Positions 15,794 to 39,450 of a stretch of 41,631 nt of DNA are shown here, piece by piece. The number at the start of each line of letters is the position of its first letter. Within the stretch, counting starts at the first letter, position 1. The stretch lies in assembly GCA_005798335.1 (NCBI GenBank), contig SYJV01000324.1, positions 1-41,631 of the forward strand, in the 5' to 3' direction. This stretch comes from Planctomycetaceae bacterium. GTDB lineage: Bacteria; Planctomycetota; Planctomycetia; Pirellulales; Pirellulaceae. A program made the translations under genes and the position numbers. The notes under the pieces were generated by a model, which saw nothing but the letters and a program-made list of their open reading frames with translations, ran no database searches and was not told where the DNA came from.

Positions 15794-15797
15794 CGCA

Positions 15798-22030: not shown

Positions 22031-22808
22031 ATACGGCCAGCTTTACGAGCGACTCTATCGCGAACACTGGTGGTGGCGGGCCAGAGAAGAGTTCTTGATG
22101 AGGCAATTGCGGTCGCTGGACCTGCCACCGCATCCGAGAGTTCTCGATGTGGGTTGCGGTAACGGTTTGTTCTTCGACAAGCTTTCGACGCTTGGCGGAG
22201 AAGTGGAGGGAATCGAGTCGGACGCGGCCCTTGTCTCGTCCGGTGGACCGCGCAACATCCACATTGGCCCGTTCGATCGGACGTTTGCCCCAGACAAGCG
22301 TTACTCGTTGATCCTCATGCTGGACGTTCTCGAGCATTTGTCCGAGCGCGAGGCCGCATTAGAGCACGCTGCCACTTTGTTGGAACCGGGCGGATACTTG
22401 ATTGTTACCGTCCCGGCGTTTCTCTGTTTGTGGACGACTCACGACGACATCAATCATCATTACACGAGGTATACCAAGGCTACGTTTCTCAATGCGGCTG
22501 CCGGTGCCCCAGTATCGATCGTGTGCATGCGGTATTTTTTTCACTTTCTGGCAGCCATCAAGCTGGTCGTACGGATTAAAGAGCGAATGATCTCCACTCG
22601 ACCCCAACCTCCTCGCATACCATCAAAATTCGTCAATAGAACGATGTTAGAACTGTGCCGCATCGAACAGCGCATCGCTTGGCTCTCACTTCCGTTCGGA
22701 AGTTCGCTTCTAGCAGTGACCCGCAAGACAAAACTTTATAGCACCTGGTCCGAATCTACAACGATACCTATAACAACCACGGCGTGGCCGCAGATCGTTG
22801 AAGGCTGA
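22020..22808 (+). CDS. Class I SAM-dependent methyltransferase (second of the glycan module)
   Basis: A 262-residue protein. ATG 22020 is preferred to TTG 22005 and gives MEREYGQLYERLYREHWWWRAREEF, an opening typical of UbiG/methyltransferase-23-like enzymes encoded beside DPM1-like transferases. SAM motif: RVLDVGCGNGLFF (about 40-52); acidic motif VEGIESDAAL; LILMLDVLEHLSERE; LLEPGGYLIVTVPAF, then HHYTRYTKATF. A weakly hydrophobic stretch near YFFHFLAAIKLVV is the only possible membrane contact. Overlap with the GT2 gene indicates coupling. It probably methylates a lipid-linked sugar or polyprenyl intermediate (inference). Confidence 0.85.
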   Translation: MEREYGQLYERLYREHWWWRAREEFLMRQLRSLDLPPHPRVLDVGCGNGLFFDKLSTLGGEVEGIESDAALVSSGGPRNIHIGPFDRTFAPDKRYSLILMLDVLEHLSEREAALEHAATLLEPGGYLIVTVPAFLCLWTTHDDINHHYTRYTKATFLNAAAGAPVSIVCMRYFFHFLAAIKLVVRIKERMISTRPQPPRIPSKFVNRTMLELCRIEQRIAWLSLPFGSSLLAVTRKTKLYSTWSESTTIPITTTAWPQIVEG

Positions 22809-22918
22809 GGTCAGGTGGAGGCGAGCGTAGTGGAAACACGCGAGCCCAGGTCAGTAAGCCATCAACAACCGCTGTGCGTCCGCAGCCATCGACTTGGTCT
22901 GTGTTTCGTGGCACCAAG

Positions 22919-24388
22919 TTAGGTGAGGATATCGTGGATGACCGTTCCGCCGGTATCGGTCAATTGTTTGAATCGGCCGGCGTGATAGAAGGTTAGCTTG
23001 AATTGGTCGAGGCCGAAGAGATGGAGCAACGTCGCGTGAACATCCTTCAGATGATAGGGTTGTTCGATCGCTTTGTCCCCCATTTCATCCGTTGCGCCAA
23101 TGAGCCTGCCGCCACCGACGCCGCCGCCGGCGAACCACATCGTCATGGCACCTGGATTATGGTCCCGGCCAGGTGTGTTCTTCTTGTGATTGTTGGCGTT
23201 GGTGTCGGGCGTGCGACCGAACTCACCGCCCCAGACGAGTAGAGTTTCATCGAGCAGGCCGCGTTGCTTAAGGTCTTGGATGAGTCCGGCAAGGGGAAGG
23301 TCCACCCGCTCGGCTGCGCTGCGATGGCCCTTCAGGATGTTATCGTGCGAATCCCATCCGCCCGACCACACTTGGACGAAGCGCACTCCCCGTTCCACCA
23401 AGCGTCGGGCCAACAAACAGCGCGTGCCAAAATCCTTGGTCTTCTCTTGGTCCAGTCCATAAAGCTTCCGAGTGGCCTCGGTTTCGCCCTCGACGGAGAG
23501 CGTTTCGGGCACCTCGGCTTGCATCCGGAAAGCCAGTTCGTAGCTGGCCATGCGCGCCTCCAAATCCGGATGCGCCGGATTCCGTTGGCTGTGTTGGCGG
23601 TTGAACGCCTGCAATAGGTCGAGGCTCTCGCGTTGTCGCGATCGGCCGACATCTTTGGGTGGTTGCAGGTCGAGAATCGGAACCGCCCCGCTCCGCAGTT
23701 GGGTTCCCTGGTAAGCAGCGGGAAGATAGGCGTTGCTCCAGGCAGCCGCGCCGCCAAACGGACGTCCGTCTCGTAGTACCACGAAGGCCGGAAGGTTTTG
23801 GCTCTCGGTTCCAAGTCCATACACGACCCAGGAGCCGATGGAGGGGCTGCCCTGAAATGCCTGTCCGGTCAGGAATTGGAACAGCGCGGCCGGATGATTA
23901 TCGCTGTCCGCATAGACCGAACGCACGAAGGCCAAGTCATCCACACAGGTCGCAACATTCTGAAACAGCTCGCTGACGTCCCTCCCACACTGGCCGAAGC
24001 GCCGAAACTGAAACGGGGAAGGGGTGAAAAATCGATCTCCTTTATTTTGATTCGACTTCAACTTCTCATTTCTGGTGAACGGTTTTCCGTCCAGTTCCTT
24101 CAGTTTCGGCTTGGGGTCGAAAGTGTCGATGTGGCTAGCCCCGCCTTCCATCATGAGAAAAATGCAGGATCGGGCGCGAGCCGGAAAATGCGGCGCTTTG
24201 GGCAGGAGCGGATTGAGCGCGGGTTTTGCCCCCAAGGACTCGGCGGCGACGGCCTGATCCTGACTCAACAACCAGCTTAGAGCGACCGAGCCGATACCGG
24301 AGCCTAGTTGATAATGGAACCCGCGCCGGTCGATTAGGTTCGACTCGACGATTGGATCGAGAACTTCGGCTCTGTTCATTTTCGCCAT
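22919..24388 (-). CDS. DUF1501 protein, Tat-exported (second copy)
   Basis: A 489-residue protein. ATG 24388 is five bases from a GGAG that lies in the end of the preceding gene; ATG 24391, overlapping the upstream stop as TAATG, is the alternative. A twin-arginine signal, NLIDRRGFHYQLGSGIGSVALSWLL, sits about 20 residues in. DUF1501 landmarks: SCIFLMMEGGASHIDTFDPKP, ARRLVERGVRFVQVWSGGWDSHDNI, LVWGGEFGRTPDTN, GRDHNPGAMTMWFAGGGVGGG, DVHATLLHLFGLDQFKLTF. Clearly homologous to 15798-17201 but not a recent duplicate. Last gene of the minus-strand operon; its stop is 110 bp from the convergent methyltransferase gene, and that gap shows no convincing terminator. Confidence 0.92.
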   Translation of the reverse strand: MAKMNRAEVLDPIVESNLIDRRGFHYQLGSGIGSVALSWLLSQDQAVAAESLGAKPALNPLLPKAPHFPARARSCIFLMMEGGASHIDTFDPKPKLKELDGKPFTRNEKLKSNQNKGDRFFTPSPFQFRRFGQCGRDVSELFQNVATCVDDLAFVRSVYADSDNHPAALFQFLTGQAFQGSPSIGSWVVYGLGTESQNLPAFVVLRDGRPFGGAAAWSNAYLPAAYQGTQLRSGAVPILDLQPPKDVGRSRQRESLDLLQAFNRQHSQRNPAHPDLEARMASYELAFRMQAEVPETLSVEGETEATRKLYGLDQEKTKDFGTRCLLARRLVERGVRFVQVWSGGWDSHDNILKGHRSAAERVDLPLAGLIQDLKQRGLLDETLLVWGGEFGRTPDTNANNHKKNTPGRDHNPGAMTMWFAGGGVGGGRLIGATDEMGDKAIEQPYHLKDVHATLLHLFGLDQFKLTFYHAGRFKQLTDTGGTVIHDILT

Positions 24389-24390
24389 CA

Positions 24391-26622
24391 TTACTCCAAG
24401 TACAAAAACTCATTAGCGTTCAAAGCGACCAAACAAAGATCGGCCAGCGCCTTGGACGGCTCGTCGCCAGCCGCCGATTCAGCACTCGACTGTTTCTCAA
24501 GGTAGCACGTACCCGCCTCCAGCTCGCTCGCAGTTGGTGACCTGCCAAAGGCCAGGCGAAAGATGAATTCCACCTGACTGCGCGGCAGCGAGCCGGCTTG
24601 GCGTTGAACACGACGGGCAAAATGCTGGCTGGTCTCGTGCGCAAACTTGCTGTTGAACAGCGCGAAGACTTGGGGAGTCGTCACCGACGTTCCCCGGCGA
24701 GCGCAAGACGTGGACATGTCGGCGGCATCGAAGGACTCCAGCATGGGAACCACCATGTTGCGGCGCTGAAACGAGTACAGGCTGCGCCGCGCGCGTTGAT
24801 TCTCTTCCGAAGGATCCCATTTGAAGAAGGGGAATTCGCGTCCCATTTCCGCAGGCAGCTCTTCAAAAAATCCAGGGCCGCCGTGGGTTAAATGCAACCT
24901 TCCACTGACCGCCAACATGGCATCGCGGAGGACTTCGCCCTCCAGGCGCCGGAAGTTGGCCCTCCAAAGCAGCCGGTTGTCGGGATCCAGCTCGGCACAG
25001 GCGTCGGTTTGCGGATGCTGGGTAGAAAGTTGATACGTTCTGGATAACAGTAAAAGCCGATGGAGCGGCTTGAGTTGCCATCCACTTTCAATGAAGCGCT
25101 TCGCCAGATAATCGAGCAACTCCGGGTGGCTCGCTCCGGAACCGTTTTTCCCAAAATCATTGGCCGTGGCGACAATCCCGGCGCCAAAATGGTACTGCCA
25201 CAAGCGATTGACGAGCACGCGCGGGGTTAGCGGATTTTCTGGACTGGCAATCCACTGGGCTAGAACTTTTCGCCGACCCGAAGGGGCGGAGTCGACCTGG
25301 GCCAATTCCGCAGAGCATTCCGCGTTCACAGATTGAACTGCGGAAAGAAAACCTGGAGCAACCCGCGGGCCGGGAGAAGTCACGCTTCCGCCTATCAGCA
25401 CGTGTGTAGCCGGGATGGGCTCATCCTGGCCCGGATTGGACACCGCGCAGGCCACGGCGTCGTAACGCGCGGACTCTTTGAATTCAGCAACTGCCTTTTT
25501 CAGTTCTTCGAATTGCTTTTTTTCTTCCGCCGATACGGACGGTTCTTTGACAATGGCCTCATCGAATTCTTTATCGTCCACCTCATAAACGGCCATGCCG
25601 AGACTGGCCGCGATTTTGGGTCTCATGGTCGAACGGAACCTGGCCAGGTCTTCGCGGCGCCGCGTTGCTTCTTGTTCGGCCTTGGCCTTGCGCACTTGGA
25701 ACTCGCCGATCGTTTCCACTTCGAGAAACTCGGCGGTGGGCTGGGTGCGTTTCAACGAGGTGAGGAACGCCTGCAGCTTATAAAAATCGTTGGTGGGAAT
25801 CGGGTCGTATTTGTGATCGTGACAACGGGCGCAGCCCACGGTGAGTCCCAGAAAAGCGGACCCGATCGCGTCGGTGATTTCGTTGAGATAGTCCTGCCGT
25901 TTGTTTTCCGGCACCATGTTGTCGGCCTCCCAAGGTCCAAGTCGATAAAACCCGGTGGCGACAATCCCCTCGCTGCCGGCGTCCATTTCGTCACCGGCGA
26001 GTTGTTCACAGATAAAACGGTCGAAGGGACGGTCCTGATTGAACGCGCGGACGACATAATCCCTGTACCGCCAGAGCGTGGGACGTTCTTCATCAATGGC
26101 AAAACCGTCGGTCTCGGCGTAGCGAACAACATCAAGCCAATGGCGCGCCCATCGCTCGCCATACCCATGCGAAGCGAGCAGACGGTCCACGACCTTCTCG
26201 TAAGCTTGCGGAGAGTTGTCGGTAAGGAATGCTTCCACTTCCTCTGGCGTGGGTGGCAAACCGGTCACATCGAAAGTGACGCGGCGGAGGAGGGCGTGGC
26301 GGGAAACTAGTGGTGCGGGCTCGATCCCTCGTTTGTCCTGCTCGGCGAGGATGAAGGCATCGATGGGCGACCACATTATCCCAGCCTGTTTCACCTTTGG
26401 CACGGCGGGGCTGGCAATTGGCCGAAATGCCCAATCGCTTGCGATCGTTCGGCGCTCAACTTCGGCAGTCTCGCTAGGGTTTTCCGCTAACAATTCGAGA
26501 GGACTGGCCAATAATCCAAGGGCGATCACCACCCACGCCACTCGGGTTGGCGGTATACCGACACTGGGGCCACGAGGTCTTTGCAATGGCTTTGATTCAA
26601 GCATCGTTGTGCATTGACTCAT
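24391..26622 (-). CDS. DUF1549/DUF1553 protein lacking the N-terminal PSCyt1 haem domain
   Basis: A 743-residue exported protein; ATG 26622 has GGGAG at 26631-26635. The leader is long, with the hydrophobic core VAWVVIALGLLASPLELLAE at about 28-47. PSCyt2/DUF1549 follows at once (SPIDAFILAEQDKRGIEPAP, RRVTFDVTGLPPTPEEVEAF, RWARHWLDVVRYAETDGFA), with one haem motif CARCHDHK (Cys264, Cys267, His268), then DUF1553 (RVLVNRLWQYHFGAGIVATANDFG, VTTPQVFALFNSKF). Compared with the homologue at 13178-15793, the whole first cytochrome domain is missing. The upstream gene ends with its own cytochrome domain and may supply it in trans (inference). A 1-bp overlap joins it to the DUF1501 gene. Confidence 0.92.
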   Translation of the reverse strand: MSQCTTMLESKPLQRPRGPSVGIPPTRVAWVVIALGLLASPLELLAENPSETAEVERRTIASDWAFRPIASPAVPKVKQAGIMWSPIDAFILAEQDKRGIEPAPLVSRHALLRRVTFDVTGLPPTPEEVEAFLTDNSPQAYEKVVDRLLASHGYGERWARHWLDVVRYAETDGFAIDEERPTLWRYRDYVVRAFNQDRPFDRFICEQLAGDEMDAGSEGIVATGFYRLGPWEADNMVPENKRQDYLNEITDAIGSAFLGLTVGCARCHDHKYDPIPTNDFYKLQAFLTSLKRTQPTAEFLEVETIGEFQVRKAKAEQEATRRREDLARFRSTMRPKIAASLGMAVYEVDDKEFDEAIVKEPSVSAEEKKQFEELKKAVAEFKESARYDAVACAVSNPGQDEPIPATHVLIGGSVTSPGPRVAPGFLSAVQSVNAECSAELAQVDSAPSGRRKVLAQWIASPENPLTPRVLVNRLWQYHFGAGIVATANDFGKNGSGASHPELLDYLAKRFIESGWQLKPLHRLLLLSRTYQLSTQHPQTDACAELDPDNRLLWRANFRRLEGEVLRDAMLAVSGRLHLTHGGPGFFEELPAEMGREFPFFKWDPSEENQRARRSLYSFQRRNMVVPMLESFDAADMSTSCARRGTSVTTPQVFALFNSKFAHETSQHFARRVQRQAGSLPRSQVEFIFRLAFGRSPTASELEAGTCYLEKQSSAESAAGDEPSKALADLCLVALNANEFLYLE

Positions 26623-26640
26623 TTCGGTTTCTCCCGCGCC

Positions 26641-29600
26641 TCATTTAAGCGTTTTCAAATAGGCGATCAAATCGCGCAGTTCGGGAATTGTAATTACTTT
26701 TTCCAGACCACTTGGCATGATTGAAGTTGCCGAGGCCGACATTTCTTCAATATCGTCGCGAGCGATCCGCTGCTCGGGCTTGCCGGCCATTCGCAGATGG
26801 ATTGCAGTTGCCGACTGTCGACCGATGACACCCACGTGGGTTTGCCCCGACAGGGTGTAAACGTTAAATGTCTGGTAGTTACCGGCAATCGTCGAACTGG
26901 GAAACACGATCGACTCGGTCAAATCGCGCTCATTGCGAATGCGAGCGATTTGCGACAGGTCGGGACCAATGTCGCCTCCGCGGTTCTCCGCACGATGGCA
27001 CGTATGGCACAACGCCCGGTTTCCAAAATAGATCTCGCGGCCGCGGCGTGCATCGCCATCGTCGATCTGCGACATCAGTTCGGCCAAGCGTTCCGCCTGT
27101 TCCCGGCGGTCCGTACCAGCGGCGCGAACCAGCGCTGTGCCCGCTTCGGCGATTTCAGGCGGAAACCGATCTAACAGCTTCTGGATGCGGTCGGGGACCA
27201 GGTTGGTCAGCGCTTGCGATCCACCCAGCCCGGCCACGATACGCTGGCCGAGCGGCACATCGCGCCCGTGTCCCGCTGGCGGAGCGACAATCGTCAGCCC
27301 ATTGAAGACGCCGTGGTTTGCGTCCGTGTCGTCGGTGGAGGCGGACCAGGAAATCTCGATCGTGCCGTTCGACTTCGGCACCACATCTCGAAACAGCGCG
27401 TGGGTTTTACCCTCGGCGTAATCTTTATCGCCAGGTTTAAGTCCATGGATGTTTTCCGTCTTGTGGCCGTTCGCATCTTCGATCGTCACCGAAGCTCCAC
27501 GCGGTGGATCGCTGGGATTTCTGGAACCGTAAAAATACAGCTCGTAGCGCCCGGCGAGCTTGAGGCCGCCCAGTATGAAACGGCTTCTGAATGACTGATG
27601 CTCGCCGCCTCCGCCACTTTGCCCGTTGTAAAAAAAGTCGCCCATGAGATTGTCGAACTGATTCGAAAAATGAGGCAGCAGGCTGGCTCCTTCCATCTTG
27701 CTGAGCCATATACCACTGTACGATCCATCCGAGGTCCGCGGATAGTTGACTCCGGTGCCGGTGGTCGGATCCCATGCGTTCCAGATCGCTAGGCCACCCT
27801 GCGGGTCGTCGGCAAATGCGGCAAGCCCACGGTGCGTTTTTCCGCCGGCCGGCTGAGCATCGACGTTGACCACCACTGCCGCCGCATCGCGCTCGAATCG
27901 CCGCAATAGGACCGGCAGTTCCAGTGACCGAGCGCGGGCCAATAGATCGGCCACAGCCAACGACTGCTGGTGGCTGAGGTTTGCGGCGGCCAGCGCCTCC
28001 GCCGCACGCACGCGATCCACTGGCAATCCATCGTCGTCCAACTGCGCTGCAAGCAGTGCAAAGGCCTCTTGGTCCAACGGCGAGCCGTGCTTGGCCACGG
28101 TGGCCAACGCGGCCAGTCGTAGCGGCTGTGGCCGCGATGCATCGCGGCTGAGCTTCAATAAGAGGTCGTCCATGCGATCGGTTTCCTTGACGGAAATCGT
28201 CGCGATAGCGTGCTCGACAAGGTCCGTGTCCGTGCTGGCGAGCAGTTTGCGCAGCGGGGCGTTCAATGGATCGGGCAGGTCGTCCAGATCACTTTCGGCC
28301 AATGCATCCAGCACCAGCAACCGTGTATCTTTGGGGGTCGACTCGCGAGCCAGCGCGTCGTTCATTTCCGATTGAATCTGACTATTGCCTGCAAACGCCG
28401 CCATCACCGCGCGGGTCAACTTGACGTCTTCGGCGGCAAGTCTTGGTGCGGTCAGCCAACGAGAGACGACTCCGCGAATTTCACCGGCCCAGTCCGCGTG
28501 CCGGCTGATGATCTCCAAAGCCGTAGTACGCAAATCTAGATCGTCGGTACTGACCAGGGGCGTGACGATTTTGTGTGTCAGATGGTTGCCCGGCATCTGG
28601 TCCAGCGCCACCAGCGCGGCTCGCTGGACCCGTGGATTGTCTGCGGCCAGGCCCTTCGCCGTAGCAGCGGACTCGTCGATGCGGATCAAAGCGTAGACAA
28701 AAGCATGCATTAGAAAGTCGTCATTGTCCTCGCGGGCAACCGCATCCAATATCGCGGAAACCGAGGAGACCGAACCGATCTGTCCTAGCGCGGCGGCGGC
28801 TGTGCGACGTTGGAGTGGCGGTCCATGGCGAAGGATCGCGCGCAGTGCTTCGCTGGCACCCGGATCTTTGAGAATGCCGACGCTGAGGATGGCGGCCTGA
28901 CGAACGGTCGCATCCCGGTCGGCAAGCGCCGCGCGGATCGCTTGAAGTGCCGGTGGCGTACCGATTCGCGAAAGCGTCCAGACGGCATTGCGACGGAGCT
29001 CGACGACGTCAGAAGAACAGAGCGCCTTGTCCAGCGCGGGCACGGCGCCGGTACCTCGCCGGACCAGCGTATCGATCGCACGGTCGCGGACTACCGGGCG
29101 AGGGTCGTCCAGCCACGTCACCATTTCGTCACTGGTGGCGTTCCAGTCGAGTTGTCGACCGCGCGGATCCACAACGGGAGTCGCTCCCGCTTTGCGAATC
29201 CGGTAGATCGCGCCGAGCACCATCGGCTTGGCGATCTTCGACGTGGGACAGCCGTAATAGACCCAGCCGCCAGTGTCGATGAGCAGCAGGCTGCCGTCGG
29301 CGTCTTCCAATATATCGGTGGGGTGGAAATCGATCGCGTCGGCCGCCAGGAAATCCACATCGATCGATTGAAAAGTCGATCCGTGCGGTGCGATTTGTGT
29401 CCGTACGACTTTGTGCGTGTTGAACTGGCAAGCGAAGTAGTTGTCGCGATACTCGGCGCCGAACGCCGTGCCGCGATACCGCATCAACCCGGCCGGTGCG
29501 ACTTGTCCCCAGCGGCTCAAGGCCGGTAACCGGTAACCTGTGTCGGGCAGCAGCGGTTTGCCGTAAACGGTATGCGTCAGCGCCCCGTCGATCCAATGGA

Positions 29601-30378
29601 TCAACGCGTCGTGCCGACCGTCCACGCCATCGAAGATCGCGGCGGTGCTTAGCAGCTCACCTTCGGGCGTGAATTCGACGTCGACCGGGTTCACGGGGCC
29701 TTGGCCGAAAACTTCCAGATCGGTTCCATCCGCGCGGCACGAGTAGACACCGGCTGCGGAACCTTGGCCAAGCCGCTTGCCATCCGCGCCCGCCAGGTCA
29801 TAGCCGAACACGCCGCCGGTGAAATAGATACGTCCACACGGTCCCAGGTACGGACCACTTTGATTGGGGTTACCGTTGAAATTAAATTCGCCAACCAGTT
29901 TTTCACGTCGGTCGGCGACTCCGTCGTCGTCGGTATCTTCCAAACGCCACAAGTAGGGCGCCGAAACGACGTACAGCGCGTTGTTGTGCCATAGCGCCCC
30001 TTCGGGCATGACCATCTTATCGGCAAAGATCGTACTTTTGTCGAACTTGCCGTCGTCATCGGTATCCTCAAGCATTCGAATGAAGCGAGATTTTTCCTGT
30101 AGCAGCTCCTCCTTCCTCAGATTGCGACCGTCCGTTTCAGCAATGAATAGTCGGCCACGATGATCGAGACAGGCAAGCATCGGATGCTTGACCAGAGGCG
30201 GGGCCGCGGCCAGTTCCAGCACGAACCCGTCCGGCACCCTGATCGCTGGCGGCGTAAATTCGGCTGCCTCGTTTGCCGTGGCCATCGACCGGAATGCAAC
30301 GACGGCAAGGCAAAGCGAAATGCAAAATCTAGAATTGCACATCGACGGCTCACGAAAATTTTTTGAAAAGCATTTCAC
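26641..30378 (-). CDS. PVC-type membrane-bound dehydrogenase with HEAT repeats, beta-sandwich insert and C-terminal haem domain
   Basis: A 1245-residue exported protein. GTG 30378 is chosen for TCTCC at 30385-30389 (GGAGA on the coding strand); ATG 30342 is an alternative, and the signal peptide ([14 protein letters not shown]) follows either. Residues ~45-400 form the PVC-type PQQ-like propeller ([65 protein letters not shown]). Residues ~420-850 are HEAT repeats. Residues ~860-1060 look like an extra beta-sandwich ([50 protein letters not shown]). The C-terminus has a haem domain with CHTCH (about 1124-1128), GPDLSQIA and MPSGL as Met ligand. It is followed by the DUF1553 gene at 18 bp. Predicted to oxidise a sugar or alcohol in the periplasm (family inference). 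Confidence 0.9.
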
Positions 30379-30422
30379 AGGTGGTCTCCAGGCGAGCGGG
30401 GCGACACGTCAACATCGATTTA

Positions 30423-31745
30423 TTACCCTTGCGGCGTGCGTGGTCTCACATTCGATTTCGGGCGAAAGTGTTTGTCGGCGAAGTCCAGGTAGCGCTGCCA
30501 GTCGTAGTCGGTCACGTCGTGTTTGCCTCTGCGGATATGAAAGCCGATGGTGTTCATCACCGGCTGGTCGACCGCCGGCATCGTCCCCGAGGGGAGGCCT
30601 TCCGCGCCTAACAGGCGATACACATCGCTCGCATGCCAAGCTGCCAGGAATTCGCCGCGAGGGTCGGACCACAGATCTTCTTCAGCGCAGGCTACATAAA
30701 CCGGCCGCGGGGCGACCAGCGCAATCAACATGTGCTGATCGACCGGAAGGGCTTCCGGATGATCGCCATACTTGTTGAAATTGTCGCAAAACCAGTGAGG
30801 AAAAGCCTTGATGATTCGTTTGACCGGTTCGCCGAAGTCGCGGCGACTCAGCGCCGCACCGCCGCGCCCTGAATTGTTGGAGATAACCAGTGCGAACCGC
30901 TGGTCCCGGGCGCCTGCCCACAGCGCGGTCTTACCCAGCCGCGAATGCCCCATGACAGCCACGTGCTGTGCGTCGATATCATGATCCGTCGCAAAATAAT
31001 CCAAACTTCGACTCAATCCCCAGGCCCAGGCCCCGATCGTTCCCCATTGGTCCGCACGCGGCGCGGTTTGTCCAGGCTCGTAAAACAATGGCTGCACACC
31101 GTTTTTGAATCCGTCGTCGAAATCGGGATCCAGGTCCGCGCAGTGGATCGTCGCCAACGCGTAGCCTCGCGCGAGTATCATGTTGATGGCCCACCACATC
31201 GCGTGTCTACCACGCGACTTTTCCGCGGCGGCCGGGTTCTTACCATCGCGCAACGCATATCTCGAAATCGTAATGCCAGGATCGGCATGGACAGTGTGGT
31301 TGCCTTCAAAGTTCAAGCCAATAAAAAGCGGTACTGGCGCCTGCACATCGTTCGGCAGGTAGATCAGGATGTCCATACGCGGGCCGTCTTTTCTCTTGTC
31401 CGTAAAATAGACGGACACCTCGCGCCGTGTGGCCATGCCGTCCAGCGCAGTCTTGTCCTCGGAAGTGACCTCGAAGGCCATATCTTTCGGCGGACCTGGA
31501 CTGCGCCCATACATTTCCGTCTCGAACAGTTTCAGAATTTCCGGACGGCGCTCGGCAACCCACATTTGCGGACTCGTGACCTGCCTGCCGTCGGCCATCA
31601 CCAGCGCATCGGGCAACGTGTACTCGTGAACCTTGGATTCGTCGTAGTTGAAACCCGGTGGTTCGGCAATCGCGCTGGCTGGGAAGGCGAATATCAGCGC
31701 GACGGACATCGATAGGACACGGAACGGTTTCATGTGCAATTTCAT
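30423..31745 (-). CDS. Secreted alpha/beta-hydrolase, CE15 glucuronoyl-esterase-like
   Basis: A 440-residue exported esterase with a signal peptide ([19 protein letters not shown]). The hydrolase fold shows the nucleophile elbow [15 protein letters not shown] (Ser268), preceded by [17 protein letters not shown], and followed by [19 protein letters not shown], a conserved CE15 feature. [19 protein letters not shown] carries the likely catalytic acid (around Glu356/Asp357), and [14 protein letters not shown] the catalytic His409. Family members cleave esters between 4-O-methyl-glucuronate of xylan and lignin alcohols, or related uronate esters; the exact substrate is unproven. The start is not well supported: no clear Shine-Dalgarno sequence before ATG 31745 or ATG 31733. 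It sits 44 bp before the dehydrogenase gene within the operon, suggesting joint action on plant- or algal-type polysaccharide. Confidence 0.85.
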
Positions 31746-31794
31746 TTTTGTTCGCAGAGACGAGAAGTCGGTTTCTGTCGATCAATAGGCATGG

Positions 31795-33102
31795 TTAAAT
31801 CTCCGACAAAACCCCCGAACTGTCAGCAAAACGTTCATCGCGCGCCCCGGTGGCCTGGGCGATGCGCAGGAGTGCATTTGAAAAGGGGGTGTCCTCGGAA
31901 TAACGGTGCAACGCGCCGTGCTTGAGGCCACATGCTTTGCCGCCGGCGATGACGATCGGATAGTTACGGGCAATATGTGTGTGGCTCGTACTGCAACCAT
32001 AGAGGACCGTCGTGCGGTCGAGCAACGAAGAATCGCCTTCGACTGTCGATTTGAGGCGCTGGAGAAAGCAAGCCAATTGTGCGCTCAAGAATTCGTCGTA
32101 ACGCCCCCAATGCTCGAAGCCATTCTCAGTTTCGGTGGAATGCGAAAGACTATGGTGCCCTCCATTAAAACCTAGGATCGAAGGGAACTGGTCACCTATG
32201 CCTTGGCCATCTTCGCGCGAAATCTGATAGGTTGCCACGCGGGTCGAATCAGAACGGAAGGCCAGGAACATCAAATCGTAAATCGTCTTGATGTATTCAC
32301 CAGGATCTGATTGGACGGCTTGGAGGTTGACCTCGTCGGTGGCGACTTTGGGCTTGGCGACATCGAGCCATGCTTCGGTGCGGTGGACTTGCGTCTCCAC
32401 CTCGCGGACAGCAGTCAGGTACTCGTCTAGCTTCGCCCGATCGCCGCGTCCAAGTTGGCGCTGCAATCGTCGGCCGTCTTCGAGCAGGTAATCCAGCAGG
32501 CTACCAGAGTTTCGCAACGCAGCGCGTTGCTGTTCGTCGGTTTGCCCTTCCACGGAACTGAAGAGTCGATTGAAGATACGCCGTGGATCCGCTTCGGCGG
32601 GAATCGGTTGTCCGCTCTTGTTAAAAGACAAGGTACCAGTTCTTGCCGTGTATCCGATGCCGCCATCGCTGGAAAGGACGAGCGAGGGAAATCGCGTATG
32701 CGGGGCTGTCGCGCGCGAAATGATTTGATCGATGGAGATGGAATTGTTGTAGGCACCGCTCACATCCCCGCCGGTTAAGAAAGTGTCAGCGGTGGTGTGC
32801 GCCACGACCATACGACCCCGTGGATGGCTGAGTCCCTGCAGGATGCTGATGTCAGCTCGGTGAGGCTCAAGTGGCGCGAGTGACCTCGTAAGAGCGTAGT
32901 CTTTGCCATCGCCAAATGGAAACCAATGCCAATCTTTATGAGCGGGATGTTCGTGGGGAGGAAGGCTGACACCATTCGGAAAGAAAACGAAACAGGCGCG
33001 TCTGGGGAGCGATTCCGGCAACACGGCCATGCAATCCAAAACTGGTAATGCCAAGCTGCAGCCGATGCCGCGCAGCAATGTTCGTCGATTCAATGACTTC
33101 AT
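31795..33102 (-). CDS. DUF1552 protein, Tat-exported
   Basis: A 435-residue protein with a twin-arginine leader MKSLNRRTLLRGIGCSLALPVLD. The DUF1552 landmarks are ACFVFFPNGVSLPPHEHP, LQGLSHPRGRMVVAHTTADTFLTGG, SISIDQIISRA, FPSLVLSSDGGIGY, RRIFNRLFSS, RQLGRGDRAKLDEYLTAVREVETQ and GCSTSHTHIARNYPIVIAGG. This family is the standing partner of DUF1592-type cytochromes, as DUF1501 is of DUF1553 proteins, and is distantly related to DUF1501 (family knowledge). Function unknown; Tat export suggests it folds in the cytoplasm, perhaps with a metal. It starts 14 bp after the stop of the DUF1592-type gene; the Shine-Dalgarno sequence is weak (AAAAGCTC). Confidence 0.92.
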   Translation of the reverse strand: MKSLNRRTLLRGIGCSLALPVLDCMAVLPESLPRRACFVFFPNGVSLPPHEHPAHKDWHWFPFGDGKDYALTRSLAPLEPHRADISILQGLSHPRGRMVVAHTTADTFLTGGDVSGAYNNSISIDQIISRATAPHTRFPSLVLSSDGGIGYTARTGTLSFNKSGQPIPAEADPRRIFNRLFSSVEGQTDEQQRAALRNSGSLLDYLLEDGRRLQRQLGRGDRAKLDEYLTAVREVETQVHRTEAWLDVAKPKVATDEVNLQAVQSDPGEYIKTIYDLMFLAFRSDSTRVATYQISREDGQGIGDQFPSILGFNGGHHSLSHSTETENGFEHWGRYDEFLSAQLACFLQRLKSTVEGDSSLLDRTTVLYGCSTSHTHIARNYPIVIAGGKACGLKHGALHRYSEDTPFSNALLRIAQATGARDERFADSSGVLSEI

Positions 33103-33116
33103 AAAATGAGCTTTTG

Positions 33117-35567
33117 CTATTTGGTTTGAAAAGTCTCACCAAGGACAATGCACTCAATCAGTTTCCGAATTCGATATTGGCTGGAAACAAACTCTGCAGC
33201 CAGAGCGTCAACTGCCGCGGAATCGCTGAAATCGAGACTTCGTCCAAGAGCGTAAGTCATTAGTTTTTCAGTGAATGCTTTCGCGAATTGATTCTTTCGC
33301 TCGTCGAGCAATCGCCGCTGAATATCGTTCGAGTCAAGTTCCGTATCGAGGCCGCGCCATTTGCCGATCGCGTCGAAATTCTCCAAGGCGAGGCCCCAAT
33401 GATCGATCTTTTGATGGCAGTCGAAGCAGGCCGCGTTATCCCGGTGTTGCTCAAGCCGCTGCGCGATCGTAAGTCGATCCGTGCCGACTTTCGCAGCGCC
33501 GAGCATCGGTACGTTTGGAGGTGGAGGTGGAGGTGGATCGTTCAGCAGGCGCCGCAAGATCCAGGTACCGCGTTTTACTGGATGCGAGTCCACGCCGTTT
33601 GCATTGGCGGTGAGGAAGCTTGCTTGCGAAAGCAATCCACCACGATGCTCAGGAGCTGGCACGGGGCGGAAATTGGATCCAGTAAGGTGTTGCACGCCAT
33701 AATGCTGCGCCATTCGGTCATTGAGCATGACAAAGTCCGATTTCAATAGCTGCGTTGCCGGTAGATCCTGACGCAGGATGTGGTCGAACAACGCGTAGGT
33801 CTCCTCTGCCGAGTCGGCCTTGAGTTCGCTCGTATACTCTGGGAAGTTCTCTGGATTCACGGCAACACGATCTAGGCCACCTAGGTCCAGCCACTGGTAA
33901 ACGAAACTGCGTAGGAATCGGTTGCTCTTCGCATCTGCCAGCATGCGGGCTAACTGCGTCGCCAGACGTGTTCGCAGTTCGCCGGCGTCTGCAATACGCC
34001 GCAGCTCCGCATCGGGCATCGTGTTCCAGAGAAAGTAAGACAACCGACATGCCAGCTCGTGGTCGCTCAAGGCATGTTCTTTGCCCGACACTCTTGGTTC
34101 AGTTCGGTAGAGAAAATTCGCTGAACTCAGCACGGCGGCGAGTGTGTCCCTCAGTGCCGCACTAGCACGCGGGTCACGACCAACATCGACTGGCAGAGCC
34201 ACTTCATTTTGGGATAGCTGCCGATGCAAATCCAACAGCCCCTGGATTTCTTCGTCCGATATAGGCCTTCGCCAGGCTCTCGGAACAAACTTGCGCAAGG
34301 TCGCCTCGGGTGTGTCGTCCAATACCGCATGTTCCGTGGCTTCTGATCTGGGCGAAAAAACAATCTCCACCGAATCGAGGATCAGAGGCGTGGATACCGA
34401 GTCATTGGCGATGGTGATCAATTCGGCGTGAAACTTTTCCTTGCCAGTTAGGAGCACGGGCAAGTTTTCCATTCGGGCGTGGAATTCGAATATCTCATCG
34501 TCTCCAACAATCACCGAACCGATCGGCCGCAGATTGAGTATTGTTTCGGATGATCGATAGCCAAGCGAGACCGTCATCTTTACCATGCCGCCACTACCAG
34601 CCGCGCGCACGCGCACCAGCAGTTCACCTCGCAGCAGCCAGTTAGCCATCCCGTACATTTGCCGGAATCCTGGGCTAACTGGAACACCATCGAACGTCCT
34701 CGAATTCGCAACCCTTTTTTCCGCGTATTGCTCTTTGGATATCGGCTGGATCAACAATCCGCCGTGTGAATTGCCATAGATACGATCCGTCTTGCGGGTA
34801 TGCCCGGTTGGGACCGGCTCGGGCCTGGGATACTTCGGATTTGGTTTTGCCGGCCGCCCGTCCGAAGCTCGCTCGAGATGGGCCTCGTGCTGGGCAGTCC
34901 GTTTTTTCCAAGTTTCGAAATCTGCTTCGCGCTCCGCCTTGGCAGCGACGAAATAGTAAAGCTCTTTATCCGCTGAAACAGTGTCGAAACTAATATCGAG
35001 CGCGCGTCGAGCTACCTCCATATAAGTTTCCACTTGACTTGGAGCCATAAACAGAGTTTGTCCGTTATTTAGGAATCCATCCTTCGAAACAGAGTCGGGT
35101 GGAAGGTCCTTGGAGAATTCGAGCCTAAAGCCCAGCAAATCCTCCATCGTTTGTTGATACTGATCGATTGTGAGGCGTCGCAACTCGACGCGGCCACTTG
35201 AGTTGCGCCGCTGCGTCGCCGCCATTTCGAGACTACTGCGAATCCAAACGGTCAAGCGTTGGCGATCCGCGTCGGGAAGCGCCAGAGCCTCCTTGGGTGG
35301 CATTTCACCGGCGGCAACTTGATTCAGAACTTCCTGCCAATGCTCAGCATCGTTGCCGTTGACGAAATCGCGATCGAGTTCATCCAGCCTCAATTCGGCT
35401 TTCTTGATTTTCGGGCCGTGACATCGCACGCAGTGCCGGCTCAGAACGGCCTCGACTTCTGCTTGATTTCCGATGCTTGGCTCGTCGGCGCTACATGGAC
35501 TGACTGGCAACGCAACTTGGCAGACCATACTGAAAAGTATTGAGAGTGCGAAGCCGACATGTTTCAT
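33117..35567 (-). CDS. Multidomain DUF1587/1595/1592/1588/1585 cytochrome
   Basis: An 816-residue exported protein from ATG 35567, chosen because MKHVGFALSILFSMVCQVALPVSPCSADE is a good signal peptide; an upstream extension to 35690 has no support. A PSCyt1-type haem domain comes first (CVRCHGPK, Cys46, Cys49, His50; GEMPPKEA), then DUF1587 (RRLTIDQYQQTMEDLLGFRLEFSKDLPPDS), a carbohydrate-binding-like middle region, DUF1595 (LRKFVPRAWRRPISDEEIQGLL), DUF1592 (LACRLSYFLWNTMPDAELRRIADAG), DUF1588 (RGGLLSQASFLTANANG, HPVKRGTWILRRLL) with a second haem motif CFDCHQ (Cys714, Cys717, His718), and DUF1585 (YALGRSLDFSDSAAVDALA). A run of seven prolines precedes NVPML. First gene of the minus-strand operon; length and order are standard. 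Function unestablished. Confidence 0.92.
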   Translation of the reverse strand: MKHVGFALSILFSMVCQVALPVSPCSADEPSIGNQAEVEAVLSRHCVRCHGPKIKKAELRLDELDRDFVNGNDAEHWQEVLNQVAAGEMPPKEALALPDADRQRLTVWIRSSLEMAATQRRNSSGRVELRRLTIDQYQQTMEDLLGFRLEFSKDLPPDSVSKDGFLNNGQTLFMAPSQVETYMEVARRALDISFDTVSADKELYYFVAAKAEREADFETWKKRTAQHEAHLERASDGRPAKPNPKYPRPEPVPTGHTRKTDRIYGNSHGGLLIQPISKEQYAEKRVANSRTFDGVPVSPGFRQMYGMANWLLRGELLVRVRAAGSGGMVKMTVSLGYRSSETILNLRPIGSVIVGDDEIFEFHARMENLPVLLTGKEKFHAELITIANDSVSTPLILDSVEIVFSPRSEATEHAVLDDTPEATLRKFVPRAWRRPISDEEIQGLLDLHRQLSQNEVALPVDVGRDPRASAALRDTLAAVLSSANFLYRTEPRVSGKEHALSDHELACRLSYFLWNTMPDAELRRIADAGELRTRLATQLARMLADAKSNRFLRSFVYQWLDLGGLDRVAVNPENFPEYTSELKADSAEETYALFDHILRQDLPATQLLKSDFVMLNDRMAQHYGVQHLTGSNFRPVPAPEHRGGLLSQASFLTANANGVDSHPVKRGTWILRRLLNDPPPPPPPNVPMLGAAKVGTDRLTIAQRLEQHRDNAACFDCHQKIDHWGLALENFDAIGKWRGLDTELDSNDIQRRLLDERKNQFAKAFTEKLMTYALGRSLDFSDSAAVDALAAEFVSSQYRIRKLIECIVLGETFQTK

Positions 35568-35707
35568 CGAGCCATCACCGGCGCGCTGAACGTGATTTCG
35601 AAAGTGCATCGCCTCATCGCGAGTCACAATAACGGTACTCCGCGTGCCAAACCAAGACTTGTCGTTCGCAAAAGTCTGTGACCGCCACAACCATACAATT
35701 TTTGTGA

Positions 35708-35762
35708 GAGGCTATCCGAAAAGGGGTCTAGCAAAGGGTCAGACCCCTTTTCGGAGAGCCTC
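35708..35762. repeat. Long hairpin, possible bidirectional terminator/REP element
   Basis: Inverted repeat with 22-bp arms (35708-35729 and 35741-35762), one mismatch, and an 11-base loop. The arm core is ccgaaaaggggtct. The motif occurs widely in planctomycete intergenic DNA as far as I recall. It lies 17 bp downstream of the small lipoprotein gene's stop (minus strand) and upstream of the DUF1592-type gene, so it could end transcription of the former; there is no flanking U-tract, so a repeat element is the safer description. Confidence 0.8.
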
Positions 35763-35779
35763 TGACTGCACGATTGTTG

Positions 35780-36205
35780 TTAAGAGCTGATTTGGATCTT
35801 GTCGATTTTCGACGCTTTCGAATCCAATTTGAAATCAATCGTATTTGCGCCGGCCTTGACATCCTCCGTTAAGGTCGACTTGGAATTGTAGACTGACGGC
35901 ACCAGTTCGGGGATGCGACCACTATTGTCCGGCAGTACGTCGCCCGTGCGAATGATGACTCGATTTTTACCGACCCAAGCCCCTGCTTCGGTGTCGCTGA
36001 ACATCATGCGATAGCGACCACTGCTGTCGGTTTTTCCGTAGGACGTCGCTCCTCCGGAATCGGGTGTGAACAGGATCGACGCTTCGGGCAAGGCTTTGCC
36101 GTCGAGTGTGACGGTGCCAGTAACTTGCCCGAGATTTGGATTACCGCCGCAGCCAGCGGTAAACAACAACGCCAAGCAGACCACTGCATGGGATTTGGTT
36201 TTCAT
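35780..36205 (-). CDS. Small lipoprotein with carboxypeptidase-regulatory-like fold
   Basis: A 141-residue lipoprotein. The signal peptide ends LLFTAGC (lipidated Cys19), and a strong GAGGAGG (36214-36220, coding on minus) precedes ATG 36205 by eight bases. The mature part begins GQVTGTVTLDGKALPEASILFTPDSGG and continues GKTDSSGRYRMMF, the pattern of the carboxypeptidase regulatory-like/transthyretin-type beta-sandwich that planctomycetes encode in large numbers. No enzymatic residues are expected. It lies downstream of a DUF1559 gene, an association that recurs at 38307-40138 on the other strand. The proteins share the pattern GQV-GT-TLDGK-L--AS--FTP. Confidence 0.88.
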   Translation of the reverse strand: MKTKSHAVVCLALLFTAGCGGNPNLGQVTGTVTLDGKALPEASILFTPDSGGATSYGKTDSSGRYRMMFSDTEAGAWVGKNRVIIRTGDVLPDNSGRIPELVPSVYNSKSTLTEDVKAGANTIDFKLDSKASKIDKIQISS

Positions 36206-36238
36206 TAAAATAGCCTCCTCAGATACAGCTTTCCGATT

Positions 36239-36288
36239 GTCGTCTTTCGCTCCGCGAAAGGACGTCCTTTCGCGGAGCGAAAGATGAC
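36239..36288. repeat. 42-bp perfect palindrome between DUF1559 and lipoprotein genes
   Basis: 36243-36263 is the exact reverse complement of 36264-36284, with no spacer; three of four further pairs extend it to 36239-36288. The arm reads tctttcgctccgcgaaagga and c. It sits in the 107-bp gap between the DUF1559 gene and the lipoprotein gene (both minus). Transcribed, it would make a very stable hairpin that could attenuate or stabilise the downstream message. It differs in sequence from the other hairpins of this window. Confidence 0.9.
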
Positions 36289-36312
36289 ACTTATTCCTTC
36301 CGCCGTCGAGTA

Positions 36313-37302
36313 TTAGAATTCCGCGTTAATCACTCCACCGTCGTTCCTCGCGCACAACAATTGGAACGCGCCCAATCGTGTTCCAGCTCGCCAAGCCGCC
36401 CCACTCACTTCATTGTTTTCGATGCTTTGGCTGATGAAATGTACCGAACCATCGACGAATACAATCTGAGCGCCACCCACGTGTCGGCTGCTGTAGGTCG
36501 AGAGCTTTATGTCGTTGACCGCAGTTGCGGGAGGATTTATGCGAAATTGACCCATGCGCATGAGCGACTGCGGCGCGTCGGCGCGCCCGCCATCGGTCTG
36601 CAGGGCTTTGCCGTACCAAGTGGGATCCCAGAGGAAGGCGCCAGCCCCGGCGTTGGTGCCGATTCCATACCAGATTGCCTCCCCCACACAGATCGTATTG
36701 GAAGTGCCGTCAGTTACGTCTCCAATTCTGACTTTGGATTCTTCCTGGAACATCCCCATTTTCAGATCTTCCGGGTCGGTCCAAAAAATAGAACCAACAA
36801 ACGGTCCCCCGTTGGCGACATAATTGGCACCCGCAATTCCCGGATCGGTGAAAGCGAACGGCTCGCTTCCCGTACCCAATTTGAAATTCAGCGACGGATT
36901 CGCAGCCGTGGGGCAAAGCGCACCGGAAAATACTTGAGACACAATCGCTCGATTGGGAGGCTCCATGATTCGATTCGAGAAAACGATGCCGTTATATGCG
37001 CTGGTCTGTTCGATAAACGGCAGTATCGCGTAGGACCAAGCCCAACCACTGCCTCGATTTGGGCGGGAGCGGTCGGCAAGCGGGTTGGCACCCTTCCATC
37101 GAGCACCAGCCGGAAACGACTTTGTCGACGACTCGTAGTTCAGCATCGCCAGACCAATTTGTTTGAGGTTGTTGCTGCACTGCATGCGGCGAGCCGCCTC
37201 GCGAGCCGCCTGAACAGCCGGGAGCAATAAACCCACTAGAACTCCAATGATCGCAATCACCACCAACAATTCAACCAACGTAAAACCCGCCCGTTTCGAC
37301 AT
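36313..37302 (-). CDS. DUF1559 pseudopilin-like protein
   Basis: A 329-residue protein from ATG 37302, preceded by GGGAG (37311-37315). It begins MSKRAGFTLVELLVVIAIIGVLVGLLLPAVQAAREAARR, a class III (type IV prepilin) signal: prepilin peptidase should cut after Gly6 and methylate Phe7. The N-terminal helix continues with MQCSNNLKQIGLAMLNYE, followed by the DUF1559/SBP_bac_10 domain with ILPFIEQTSAYNG, GDVTDGTSNTICVGE and the terminal GAQIVFVDGSVHFISQSI. The family is massively expanded in planctomycetes and is thought to form surface or periplasmic pseudopili; the precise role is unknown. Followed by a palindrome and the small lipoprotein gene, probably one unit. Confidence 0.92.
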   Translation of the reverse strand: MSKRAGFTLVELLVVIAIIGVLVGLLLPAVQAAREAARRMQCSNNLKQIGLAMLNYESSTKSFPAGARWKGANPLADRSRPNRGSGWAWSYAILPFIEQTSAYNGIVFSNRIMEPPNRAIVSQVFSGALCPTAANPSLNFKLGTGSEPFAFTDPGIAGANYVANGGPFVGSIFWTDPEDLKMGMFQEESKVRIGDVTDGTSNTICVGEAIWYGIGTNAGAGAFLWDPTWYGKALQTDGGRADAPQSLMRMGQFRINPPATAVNDIKLSTYSSRHVGGAQIVFVDGSVHFISQSIENNEVSGAAWRAGTRLGAFQLLCARNDGGVINAEF

Positions 37303-37520
37303 AGCAGTATCTCCCAAAAACGACGATCGGCACAAATCAACAATGGTTAACAAAGGAGCACTTCGAAACTAATATACTTCGACACTAATATAAGGTGATT
37401 GATAGGCTCATTATTACACCCAGTTCTCTATTTTCTGATATTTTTCGAATTATTCGTGCATCTCCATTCCGAGCATAATCGGTCGGTCGAAACTGAGTTG
37501 CGGTAAACGCGGAAGGTCAT

Positions 37521-37811
37521 AGACCCCTTCGAGCTTGCTCGTTGGTGAAACAGCTCAGTCAGCATAGCCGCCGGGCTCGACTCGCCATTGTCAACTCGCT
37601 TTCGCACGCGCACGCAAGCCCAATTGTTCTGAAATGTTGCGACAATTGCTTTGCGAGTTTTTCGCAGGAATTCGCGAAACCGTAGAATGTTTGCTCTATG
37701 AATTACGCGCGACGGGTCGTTGTGTTATGGCGTTGGTTGTTGCGGCAGCGTTGCCCGGACATCCTTAGCTGGCGAAGCTGATTCACCAACGAGCGAGCTC
37801 GAAGGGGGTCT
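37521..37811. mobile_element. MITE-like element with ~30-bp terminal inverted repeats
   Basis: A 29-bp sequence at 37521-37549 (starting agaccccttcgagc) recurs as an inverted copy at 37782-37811, differing by one substitution and one inserted base. The 291-bp unit has no supported gene. Length, long terminal inverted repeats and lack of coding capacity fit a miniature inverted-repeat element. No target-site duplication was recognised, and the parent transposase is not in the window. It lies between two divergent DUF1559 genes; 37303-37520 contains no gene and presumably the promoter of the left one. Confidence 0.6.
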
Positions 37812-37850
37812 GGCTGTGGGGCAGTGTGTGGGTACAAGGAGTTTGCCTGG

Positions 37851-38174
37851 TTAGGATTGGCGCAGCAATTGCCGTCGAAAATCCCGCAGGCTTGTCGGCT
37901 TGTCCGGCGGATCGTTGGGTTTCAAACTAAGCGCTGGCGACTCGACTTCGACGGTGAGTAGTTTGAAGCCTAACGCTCCACCGGAAAAGCCGGTGGGATT
38001 CTCGCTGCGGAAGTTGGCGCTGATGGTGTCCGAGTGGCCGCTTGTCGTTAGTGAAAAACCGAAAGACCCGCTGGACAAGCCTGCGGGATTTCCGACAGTT
38101 ATTCTTGCGCCTATCCCGACAGTGCCATCCCACAGATGAGCCGATTCGTAATTATCGAGAATCTGTTCTTGCAT
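37851..38174 (-). CDS. Doubtful small ORF with internal GNPAGLSSGSFGFSL-type repeats
   Basis: A 107-codon frame with two related segments, GNPAGLSSGSFGFSL and ENPTGFSGGALGFKL, about 30 residues apart. A related peptide (SGGSLGFKLS) is encoded on the opposite strand of the same DNA, because the region contains inverted as well as direct copies of one DNA unit. No signal peptide, domain or Shine-Dalgarno sequence is evident. It may be a remnant of a repeat-containing gene or purely non-coding repeat DNA. Confidence 0.2.
   Translation of the reverse strand: MQEQILDNYESAHLWDGTVGIGARITVGNPAGLSSGSFGFSLTTSGHSDTISANFRSENPTGFSGGALGFKLLTVEVESPALSLKPNDPPDKPTSLRDFRRQLLRQS
37853..38128. repeat. Cluster of three diverged repeat units, one inverted
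   Basis: Three units of ~40-75 bp share the core gaa-cc-aa-g--cc-c-gga-aagcc-g-gggat: unit 1 at about 37853-37928 on the minus strand, unit 2 at 37960-37999 and unit 3 at 38050-38128 on the plus strand. Units 1 and 3 match over the longest stretch (through the gcgcc-atcc end) and form an inverted repeat around unit 2. The starts of units 2 and 3 are 90 bp apart. The rest of 38129-38306 shows no feature apart from the DUF1559 Shine-Dalgarno sequence. Confidence 0.6.
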
Positions 38175-39362: not shown

Positions 39363-39394
39363 GCTTATTGACGCCTTCGACAATAGAAAGTTTT

Positions 39395-39433: not shown

Positions 39434-39450
39434 AATTCGCTAGCTAGTTG

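Follow-up and report, generated by a model that had tools for sequence, protein, structure and literature searches.

A six-gene directon in a Planctomycetaceae bacterium combines two cytochrome gene pairs with genes for a CE15-like esterase and a PVC-type heme protein

Introduction

For the organization of PSCyt and PSD genes in Verrucomicrobia, a role in carbohydrate metabolism has been suggested, and passages of the same paper describe nothing as being known, as of 2017, about the functions of these gene pairs (He et al., 2017, PMC5615132). In R. baltica, the PSD1/PSCyt2 gene RB10051 and the DUF1552 gene RB9955 are named in a study of stress transcription, in passages where CE15 is not mentioned (PMC2754498); both belong to domain families that are also present in the locus described here. 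In several bacteria, three examined planctomycetes among them, the orientation of CE15 homologues is suggestive of operons, and many such putative operons contain carbohydrate genes (passages of PMC4951047).

We analyzed a contig of 41,631 nucleotides from a Planctomycetaceae bacterium (SYJV01000324.1, GenBank assembly GCA_005798335.1), hereafter called the window. Compared with the Verrucomicrobia organization as given in passages of PMC5615132, the window carries both gene pairs in one directon, with a CE15 gene and a gene for a PVC-type heme protein between them. Our literature search noticed no paper on this combination, and we claim nothing wider than that.

A compact directon of six genes

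The ORF listing of the window places six intact ORFs in a row on one strand (Table 1). The DUF1592-type and DUF1552 genes are separated by 14 bp, the DUF1552 and CE15 genes by 49 bp, the CE15 and PVC-type genes by 44 bp, and the PVC-type and DUF1553 genes by 18 bp, while the DUF1553 and DUF1501 genes overlap by 1 bp at 24391 (a gap of -1). The DUF1592-type + DUF1552 pair and the DUF1553 + DUF1501 pair each have both of their domain sets in adjacent, same-strand genes. The six genes form a real directon, and the near-gapless run and the gene identities proposed in a sequence-only reading of this DNA were borne out by the ORF and domain scans.

Table 1. Features of the directon and its upstream region
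Feature	Coordinates	Strand	Evidence
DUF1592-type cytochrome, PSCyt1-PSD3-PSD5-PSD4-PSCyt3-PSD2, two CxxCH	33117..35567	-	ORF, domain and motif scans
DUF1552 (HXXSHH) protein, RR (Tat-like) leader	31795..33102	-	Domain and motif scans, conserved columns
CE15 glucuronoyl-esterase-like protein (PF22244), S268/D357/H409 in triad places	30423..31745	-	Domain scan, phmmer, triad comparison
PVC-type heme protein, TIGR02604/DUF7133 N-terminal + HEAT repeats + TIGR02603 C-terminal heme domain, one CxxCH	26641..30378	-	Domain and motif scans
DUF1549-DUF1553 cytochrome (PSCyt2-PSD1), one CxxCH, without PSCyt1	24391..26622	-	Domain and motif scans
DUF1501 protein, RR leader, predicted sulfatase/alkaline-phosphatase-like fold	22919..24391	-	Domain and motif scans, predicted model
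Inverted repeat, 26-nt arms, 92% complementary, 11 nt between	35704..35766		Repeat search

The directon is probably read as one transcript. An inverted repeat lies upstream of the six genes, between the directon and a small gene at 35780-36205. Six promoter-like matches were found in 22700-38400 compared with a mean of 5.6 in shuffles, which is the level expected by chance, and internal promoters are therefore neither indicated nor excluded. All six products are probably exported, as judged by eye from their export signals. For the DUF1592-type gene, the longest ORF starts at a TTG at 35690, and the ATG at 35567, which the sequence-only reading had taken as the start, is followed by a plausible signal peptide, again judged by eye. 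Among the 17 window proteins scanned, which cover positions from 10456 upward, none matched a glycoside hydrolase.

The CE15 esterase and the heme proteins

A phmmer search of PDB sequences with the CE15 protein gave 21 matches at E <= 0.1. The best of these (6gry, E 2.7e-139) spans residues 34-424 of 440, or nearly the full length, and the MZ0003 structure 6ehn matches with E 1.4e-138, placing the protein close to the solved enzymes MZ0003 and OtCE15A. The nucleophile motif G-x-S-R-x-G is present as GHSRLG at 266, S268 and D357 fall opposite Ser243 and Asp332 of MZ0003 in the alignment (passages of PMC5722869), and H409 is put in the triad place by the common GKHDVT motif only. Both proteins retain the Ser and Asp triad places and have lost the canonical Glu place, which is occupied by Asn291 in the window protein and by Cys266 in MZ0003 (passages of PMC5722869 and PMC4951047). 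The gene contexts of the two differ. Judged by these alignments, the protein is CE15 glucuronoyl-esterase-like, with the corresponding activity predicted.

The term 'multiheme' for these proteins does not survive, because only four CxxCH motifs are found across the six of them. The DUF1553 protein of the directon lacks PSCyt1, a domain that is present in a second DUF1553 protein encoded in the window (13163-15793). Residues 1110-1245 of the PVC-type protein match the diheme cytochrome Kustd1711 (PDB 7zs0, E 2.5e-15), a likeness that is limited to the C-terminal heme domain: Kustd1711 has 316 residues and two hemes (passages of PMC11791136), whereas the PVC-type protein has 1245 residues and one CxxCH.

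The six-gene order in other genomes

The sequence-only reading had proposed a search for the same six-gene order in other genomes. This order occurs in none of the 60 CE15 loci read in other genomes (flanks complete in 43, among the matches listed), and in none of nine loci bearing the closest DUF1552 relatives. The DUF1552 search covered 241 genomes of the family, 15 of the genus and 397 of the class. The remaining queries were run against 199 genomes of the family, of which only the best loci were read; a same-order locus made of more distant paralogues may exist elsewhere. For the loci read, these counts speak against a conserved six-gene system and leave the suggestion of a conserved single pathway without support. 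An order unique to this genome was itself half of what the reading had named as speaking against it.

CE15 is widespread, with matches in at least 175 of the 199 family genomes (own genome included), and the neighbor table, comprising 61 loci minus nine in which a simple ORF caller did not recover CE15, reveals no conserved neighbor set. By tblastn, one of the 60 loci (L062) has a same-strand neighbor from the other five proteins within 600 bp of CE15, and here DUF1553, DUF1501 and CE15 are in tandem. A profile search found a DUF1553 gene in four of 61 CE15 loci (the second copy of this genome included, and L057 left out, where the match is a PSCyt1-only protein), and a family-wide CE15/DUF1553 link is rejected on this count. 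For the three other modules, close relatives sit on different contigs, and the modules appear to occur independently of one another. On the other side, both the PVC-type and the DUF1553 protein have close relatives in four genomes (G016, G033, G061 and G110); these lie on different contigs, some of which are short, so that linkage is not always excluded.

Within this genome, the three genes whose CE15 match is strong or confirmed by Pfam (C281, C25 and C228) each have a same-strand PSD1 gene 4-6 kb away, those on C25 and C228 also have DUF1553 and DUF1501 genes nearby on the same strand, and two weaker CE15 matches (C330 and C542) have no such PSD1 gene nearby. This proximity hints at a local functional link. 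Sugar-related genes also adjoin some close relatives of two modules: at L138, a close DUF1553/DUF1501 relative has an acid-sugar dehydratase-like gene immediately upstream, genes of the same cluster are present at L139 and L140, an FGGY sugar kinase lies beside a module relative at L146, and a kinase and a carbohydrate-esterase-like gene do so at L143. Together with CE15 itself, these genes lend indirect support to the proposed carbohydrate flavor of the locus.

Such neighborhoods would suit a dedicated pathway, in which an ester is taken off a uronate polysaccharide, the PVC-type protein performs an oxidation, and electrons run through both cytochrome pairs. The very tight spacing, the retained CE15 triad places, the C25 and C228 neighborhoods, the L062 tandem and the operon-suggesting orientations of bacterial CE15 homologues (passages of PMC4951047) are likewise in its favor. 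However, we consider this pathway unlikely, given that its gene order is absent from the 60 CE15 and nine DUF1552-relative loci, that DUF1553 is so rare in CE15 loci, that CE15 has no conserved neighbors in the table, and that NCBIfam now names the PVC domain 'PVC-type heme-binding CxxCH protein', not dehydrogenase.

Two gene pairs as probable versions of one module

The statement that the two pairs normally occur separately proved too strong. A same-strand DUF1553 gene lies within 10 kb of six of the 16 DUF1592-type genes in this genome, where about 1.9 would be expected (P about 0.008), and of five of 15 when the window is omitted (1.8 expected, P about 0.025), these expectations ignoring contig ends. 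Moreover, a DUF1553-DUF1501 pair is present in the stretch read at eight of the nine loci that bear the closest DUF1552 relatives, and at two of them it lies on the same strand and in the same order. Both pairs are stacked on one strand at L089, L090, L092, L093, L241 and L128 as well. Partial linkages include PVC followed by DUF1501 (L130), DUF1592/DUF1552 and PVC on one strand (L142), DUF1553-DUF1501-DUF1552 (L139 and L140), and CE15 followed by DUF1592-DUF1552 (L076). As for the DUF1592-type/DUF1552 pair itself, a same-strand DUF1552 gene lies within 3.5 kb of 11 of the 16 PSD4 genes of this genome.

This clustering above expectation, along with five successive gaps of less than 50 bp on one strand, argues against an accident of neighborhood, whereby members of two very large families came to lie beside CE15 and PVC genes by chance and share no function. 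Two points fit such an accident, namely that the families are abundant (this genome has 110 matches to PSD1 and at least 127 to DUF1501) and that the order was unseen in the other loci read, yet we judge it improbable.

The two pairs appear to be remote versions of a single two-part module, made up of a c-type cytochrome and a protein with a Tat-like leader. The DUF1501 and DUF1552 families can be aligned over 369 columns (E 3.5e-14), and by this comparison DUF1552 is a remote homologue of DUF1501. The DUF1553 and DUF1592 families have in common the PSCyt1 region (E 3.7e-10), which is absent from the directon's own DUF1553 protein, and a PSD1/PSD2-like stretch of 70 columns (2.7e-5).

The fold of the DUF1501 protein is predicted to be that of the sulfatase/alkaline-phosphatase superfamily. 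A Foldseek search with its predicted model (pLDDT 83.9) gave 84 PDB matches at E <= 0.001, and each of the 50 listed belongs to this superfamily, be it a sulfatase, an LTA synthase or another member. With low TM-scores of 0.30-0.39 on the query, the match holds at superfamily level. An earlier model from five sequences (pLDDT 41.9) had no PDB match at E <= 0.001. Residues H166, D347, H349, E390, R393, R409 and H411 are identical in 51 of 51 sequences. DUF1501 may already belong to the alkaline-phosphatase clan of Pfam. By phmmer, the DUF1501, DUF1552, DUF1553 and DUF1592 proteins have no PDB match at 0.1, and the DUF1552 profile has only nine weak matches, to designed and other small proteins.

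If DUF1501 and DUF1552 proteins were enzymes with a sulfatase fold, and their partner cytochromes coupled the reaction to electron transfer, the pairs would represent a redox-coupled hydrolase system that planctomycetes have reused repeatedly with exchangeable helpers such as CE15. In the window, this system would then be fully loaded, with both module forms on one transcript. We regard this idea as a long shot.

Discussion

The explanation that we favor, with some confidence, is that the directon arose in this lineage by the stacking of four widespread, separately found modules, probably into one transcript: the DUF1592-type/DUF1552 pair, the CE15 esterase, the PVC-type heme protein and the DUF1553/DUF1501 pair, the two pairs being remote versions of one module. 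Outside the cytoplasm, the directon perhaps handles a uronic-acid sugar that bears an ester. Under this scheme, all six products would be exported, CE15 would act on an oligosaccharide and free its esterified uronic acid, the DUF1501 and DUF1552 proteins would be metalloenzymes acting on the sugar, and the cytochromes and PVC-type protein would feed the electrons of an oxidation step into the periplasmic cytochrome pool. What endures of the sequence-only reading is its gene identities, its tight directon and, indirectly, its carbohydrate flavor; its separate pairs, conserved pathway and multiheme proteins are not supported.

The exact six-gene order matters little by itself, because it is not found in the other loci read. 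The pairs, which are strongly expanded in this genome, are of broader relevance: viewed as one module in two versions, with a sulfatase-like protein as partner and in some cases CE15 alongside, they may point to a testable class of substrate.

Architecture of the six-gene run

All six open reading frames of the minus-strand run described by the sequence-only reading are intact, with successive gaps of 14, 49, 44, 18 and -1 bp, as claimed. From Pfam and NCBIfam matches, the products are, in transcription order, a DUF1592-type protein (PSCyt1, PSD3, PSD5, PSD4, PSCyt3, PSD2), a DUF1552 protein, a CE15 (glucuronoyl-esterase-like) protein, a PVC-type haem protein (TIGR02604, HEAT repeats, TIGR02603), a PSCyt2-PSD1 protein (the DUF1553 type) and a DUF1501 protein. 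As judged by eye, all six carry export leaders, and those of the DUF1552 and DUF1501 proteins contain RR motifs. The description of the run's proteins as multihaem misfits, because CxxCH motifs number only 2, 0, 0, 1, 1 and 0 along the six proteins.

Features of the window and of two other-genome loci
Feature	Location	Coordinates	Strand	Remark
Six-gene run	window	22919-35567	minus	
CE15 gene	window	30423-31745	minus	third gene of the run
26-nt inverted repeat	window	35704-35766		between the six genes and an upstream small gene plus DUF1559 gene
Two DUF1559-plus-small-gene units	window	35780-37353; 38307-40138		divergent
Several long imperfect inverted repeats	window	37524-38116		between the two DUF1559 units
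Second DUF1553-DUF1501 pair	window	13163-18274	plus	its DUF1553 has PSCyt1; an amidohydrolase gene follows, overlap 4 bp
291-aa ORF	CE15 locus L057	8171-9046	same as CE15	immediately after CE15; matches the DUF1553 family profile in its PSCyt1 section; N-terminal part hydrophobic
DUF1592, DUF1552, 321-aa protein, DUF1501, FGGY kinase, DUF1553, DUF1501	L128/L146 (one place, genome G135)	126-11803	all on one strand	

Conservation of the gene order

The CE15 query yields matches at E <= 1e-60 in at least 175 of the 199 family genomes, the source genome included. The six-gene order, which the earlier reading had proposed to seek in other genomes, was found at 0 of 60 CE15 loci read from them, 43 of which had at least 4 kb upstream and at least 7.5 kb downstream. 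Partial resemblances occur: at one of the 60 (L062), a DUF1501 gene preceded by DUF1553 lies on the same strand, 44 bp from CE15; at L076, a DUF1592-DUF1552 pair lies two genes beyond CE15; and at L065, L074 and L079, PVC-type matches lie near CE15 but on the opposite strand. By family profile, DUF1553 is present at 4 of 61 CE15 loci (the source genome's second copy counted) over about 1.02 Mb, which is below expectation at the source genome's density of one PSD1 match per about 80 kb, with an ORF caller that misses some genes. L057 was rejected as a fifth such locus: its protein is PSCyt1-only (45 bits), and the count is therefore 4/61 rather than 5/61.

Close relatives of the three modules other than CE15 occur on different contigs. 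Six further genomes (G019, G145, G002, G069, G102, G135) have DUF1552 relatives at 64-67% that stand beside DUF1592, and others at 53-55% occur in G035, G092 and G514; at genus level (15 genomes, source included) the best match outside the source genome is 50%. The stretches read around these nine closest relatives contain neither CE15 nor the PVC protein, and eight (all except G514) contain a DUF1553-DUF1501 pair. This pair follows DUF1592/DUF1552 on the same strand at L128 (G135) and at L241 (G092), where a single 521-aa protein intervenes. The L128/L146 run is another stacked cluster, with cargo different from that of the window.

Close relatives of the DUF1553-DUF1501 pair occur in G016, G061, G110, G085, G033 and G040, and of the PVC protein in G033, G101, G016, G070, G004, G061 and others. 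Both are present in G016, G033, G061 and G110, on different contigs, some of them short. Two-module links recur, as PVC then DUF1501 (L130), DUF1592, DUF1552 and PVC on one strand (L142) and DUF1553-DUF1501-DUF1552 (L139, L140). A DUF1592-DUF1552 pair (DUF1552 at 44%) also occurs at L150, whose contig bears the label of an Arenicella MAG; the pair would be non-planctomycete if that label is right. Among IMG/VR viral contigs, 151 DUF1501 relatives were confirmed and 80 kept (L152-L231); these may be carried by phages or lie on host contigs that were misclassified.

The available text of one paper already describes PSCyt2 and PSCyt3 genes adjoining two unknown families (PMC5615132). Literature searches made for this gene set brought up no noticed instance of precisely these six genes together.

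Module association within the source genome

Using PSD1 and PSD4 matches as proxies for DUF1553 and DUF1592-type genes, we counted 110 PSD1 matches (about 107 genes once merged), 16 matches each for PSD4 and DUF1552, and no fewer than 127 for DUF1501, where 127 of 223 candidates were scored. A same-strand DUF1552 gene lies within 3.5 kb of 11 of the 16 PSD4 genes. PSD1 lies within 10 kb on the same strand at 6/16 and on the opposite strand at 0/16; the same-strand figure compares with 1.9 expected (P about 0.008). Leaving the window out gives 5/15, where 1.8 would be expected (P about 0.025); neither calculation allows for contig ends. At one of these five further genes (L087; the others are L089, L090, L092 and L093), no DUF1501 was seen adjoining the DUF1553.

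At a distance of 4-6 kb from each of the three strong or Pfam-confirmed CE15 genes (contigs C281, C25 and C228) lies a PSD1 gene on the same strand, and the two weak CE15 matches, on C330 and C542, have no such neighbour. This proximity favours the link proposed by the sequence-only reading, in very small numbers. The second CE15 gene (L085, on C25) likewise lies upstream of same-strand DUF1553 and DUF1501 genes; a Uma2-type gene and an unassigned one with a 467-aa product stand among them.

Relatedness of the two pairs and the predicted DUF1501 fold

Profile comparisons, all with single-comparison E-values, align DUF1501 with DUF1552 over 369 columns, leader included (E 3.5e-14, probability 98%). 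DUF1553 and DUF1592 have the PSCyt1 region in common (3.7e-10), also align over a 70-column PSD1/PSD2-like segment (2.7e-5, probability 74%), and are only weakly alike at their ends (0.0014, probability 18%). For a predicted DUF1501 model, built from 51 sequences (pLDDT 83.9), a structure search gave 84 PDB chains at E <= 0.001; the best 50 comprise sulfatases and LTA synthases together with an alkaline phosphatase and related proteins. Because the query-based TM-scores are 0.30-0.39, the predicted fold is claimed at the level of the sulfatase/alkaline-phosphatase superfamily only. The DUF1501 profile gave 19 matches to PDB sequences at E <= 1 (best 0.027), all of them LTA synthases, sulfatase-type enzymes or ENPP4. 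Seven residues invariant in 51/51 sequences (His166, Asp347, His349, Glu390, Arg393, Arg409 and His411) are candidate metal or substrate ligands.

The CE15 esterase

Of the 21 PDB sequences matched by the CE15 protein, 6gry ranks first (E 2.7e-139), nearly equalled by MZ0003 (6ehn, 1.4e-138), a bacterial esterase with which planctomycete homologues group, according to the available text of two papers (PMC4951047, PMC5722869). Both proteins lack the canonical Glu (Asn291 here, Cys266 in MZ0003), and Asp357 occupies the position of MZ0003 Asp332, whose change to alanine gives an inactive mutant (PMC5722869). His409 was placed through the common GKHDVT motif, since the His number in the published MZ0003 text disagrees with our count. 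The same partial texts (PMC4951047, PMC5722869) give the natural substrate of MZ0003 as unknown and report apparent operons around CE15 homologues in several bacteria, many with carbohydrate genes.

Proposed role

A carbohydrate role for the stack is supported indirectly by an acid-sugar dehydratase-like gene ahead of a close DUF1553-DUF1501 relative (L138), by the FGGY kinase of L146, by a kinase and a sialate-esterase-like gene near another module relative (L143), and by such a role for PSCyt genes being suggested in the available text of PMC5615132. No sugar-related gene was found among the four neighbours scanned at the closest DUF1553-DUF1501 relative (L136). We think that the six-gene stack serves extracytoplasmic use of an ester-bearing uronic-acid oligosaccharide, its putative substrate: CE15 would open the ester, the sugar itself would be the target of the DUF1501 and DUF1552 proteins, and electrons would be carried away by the cytochromes and the PVC protein.
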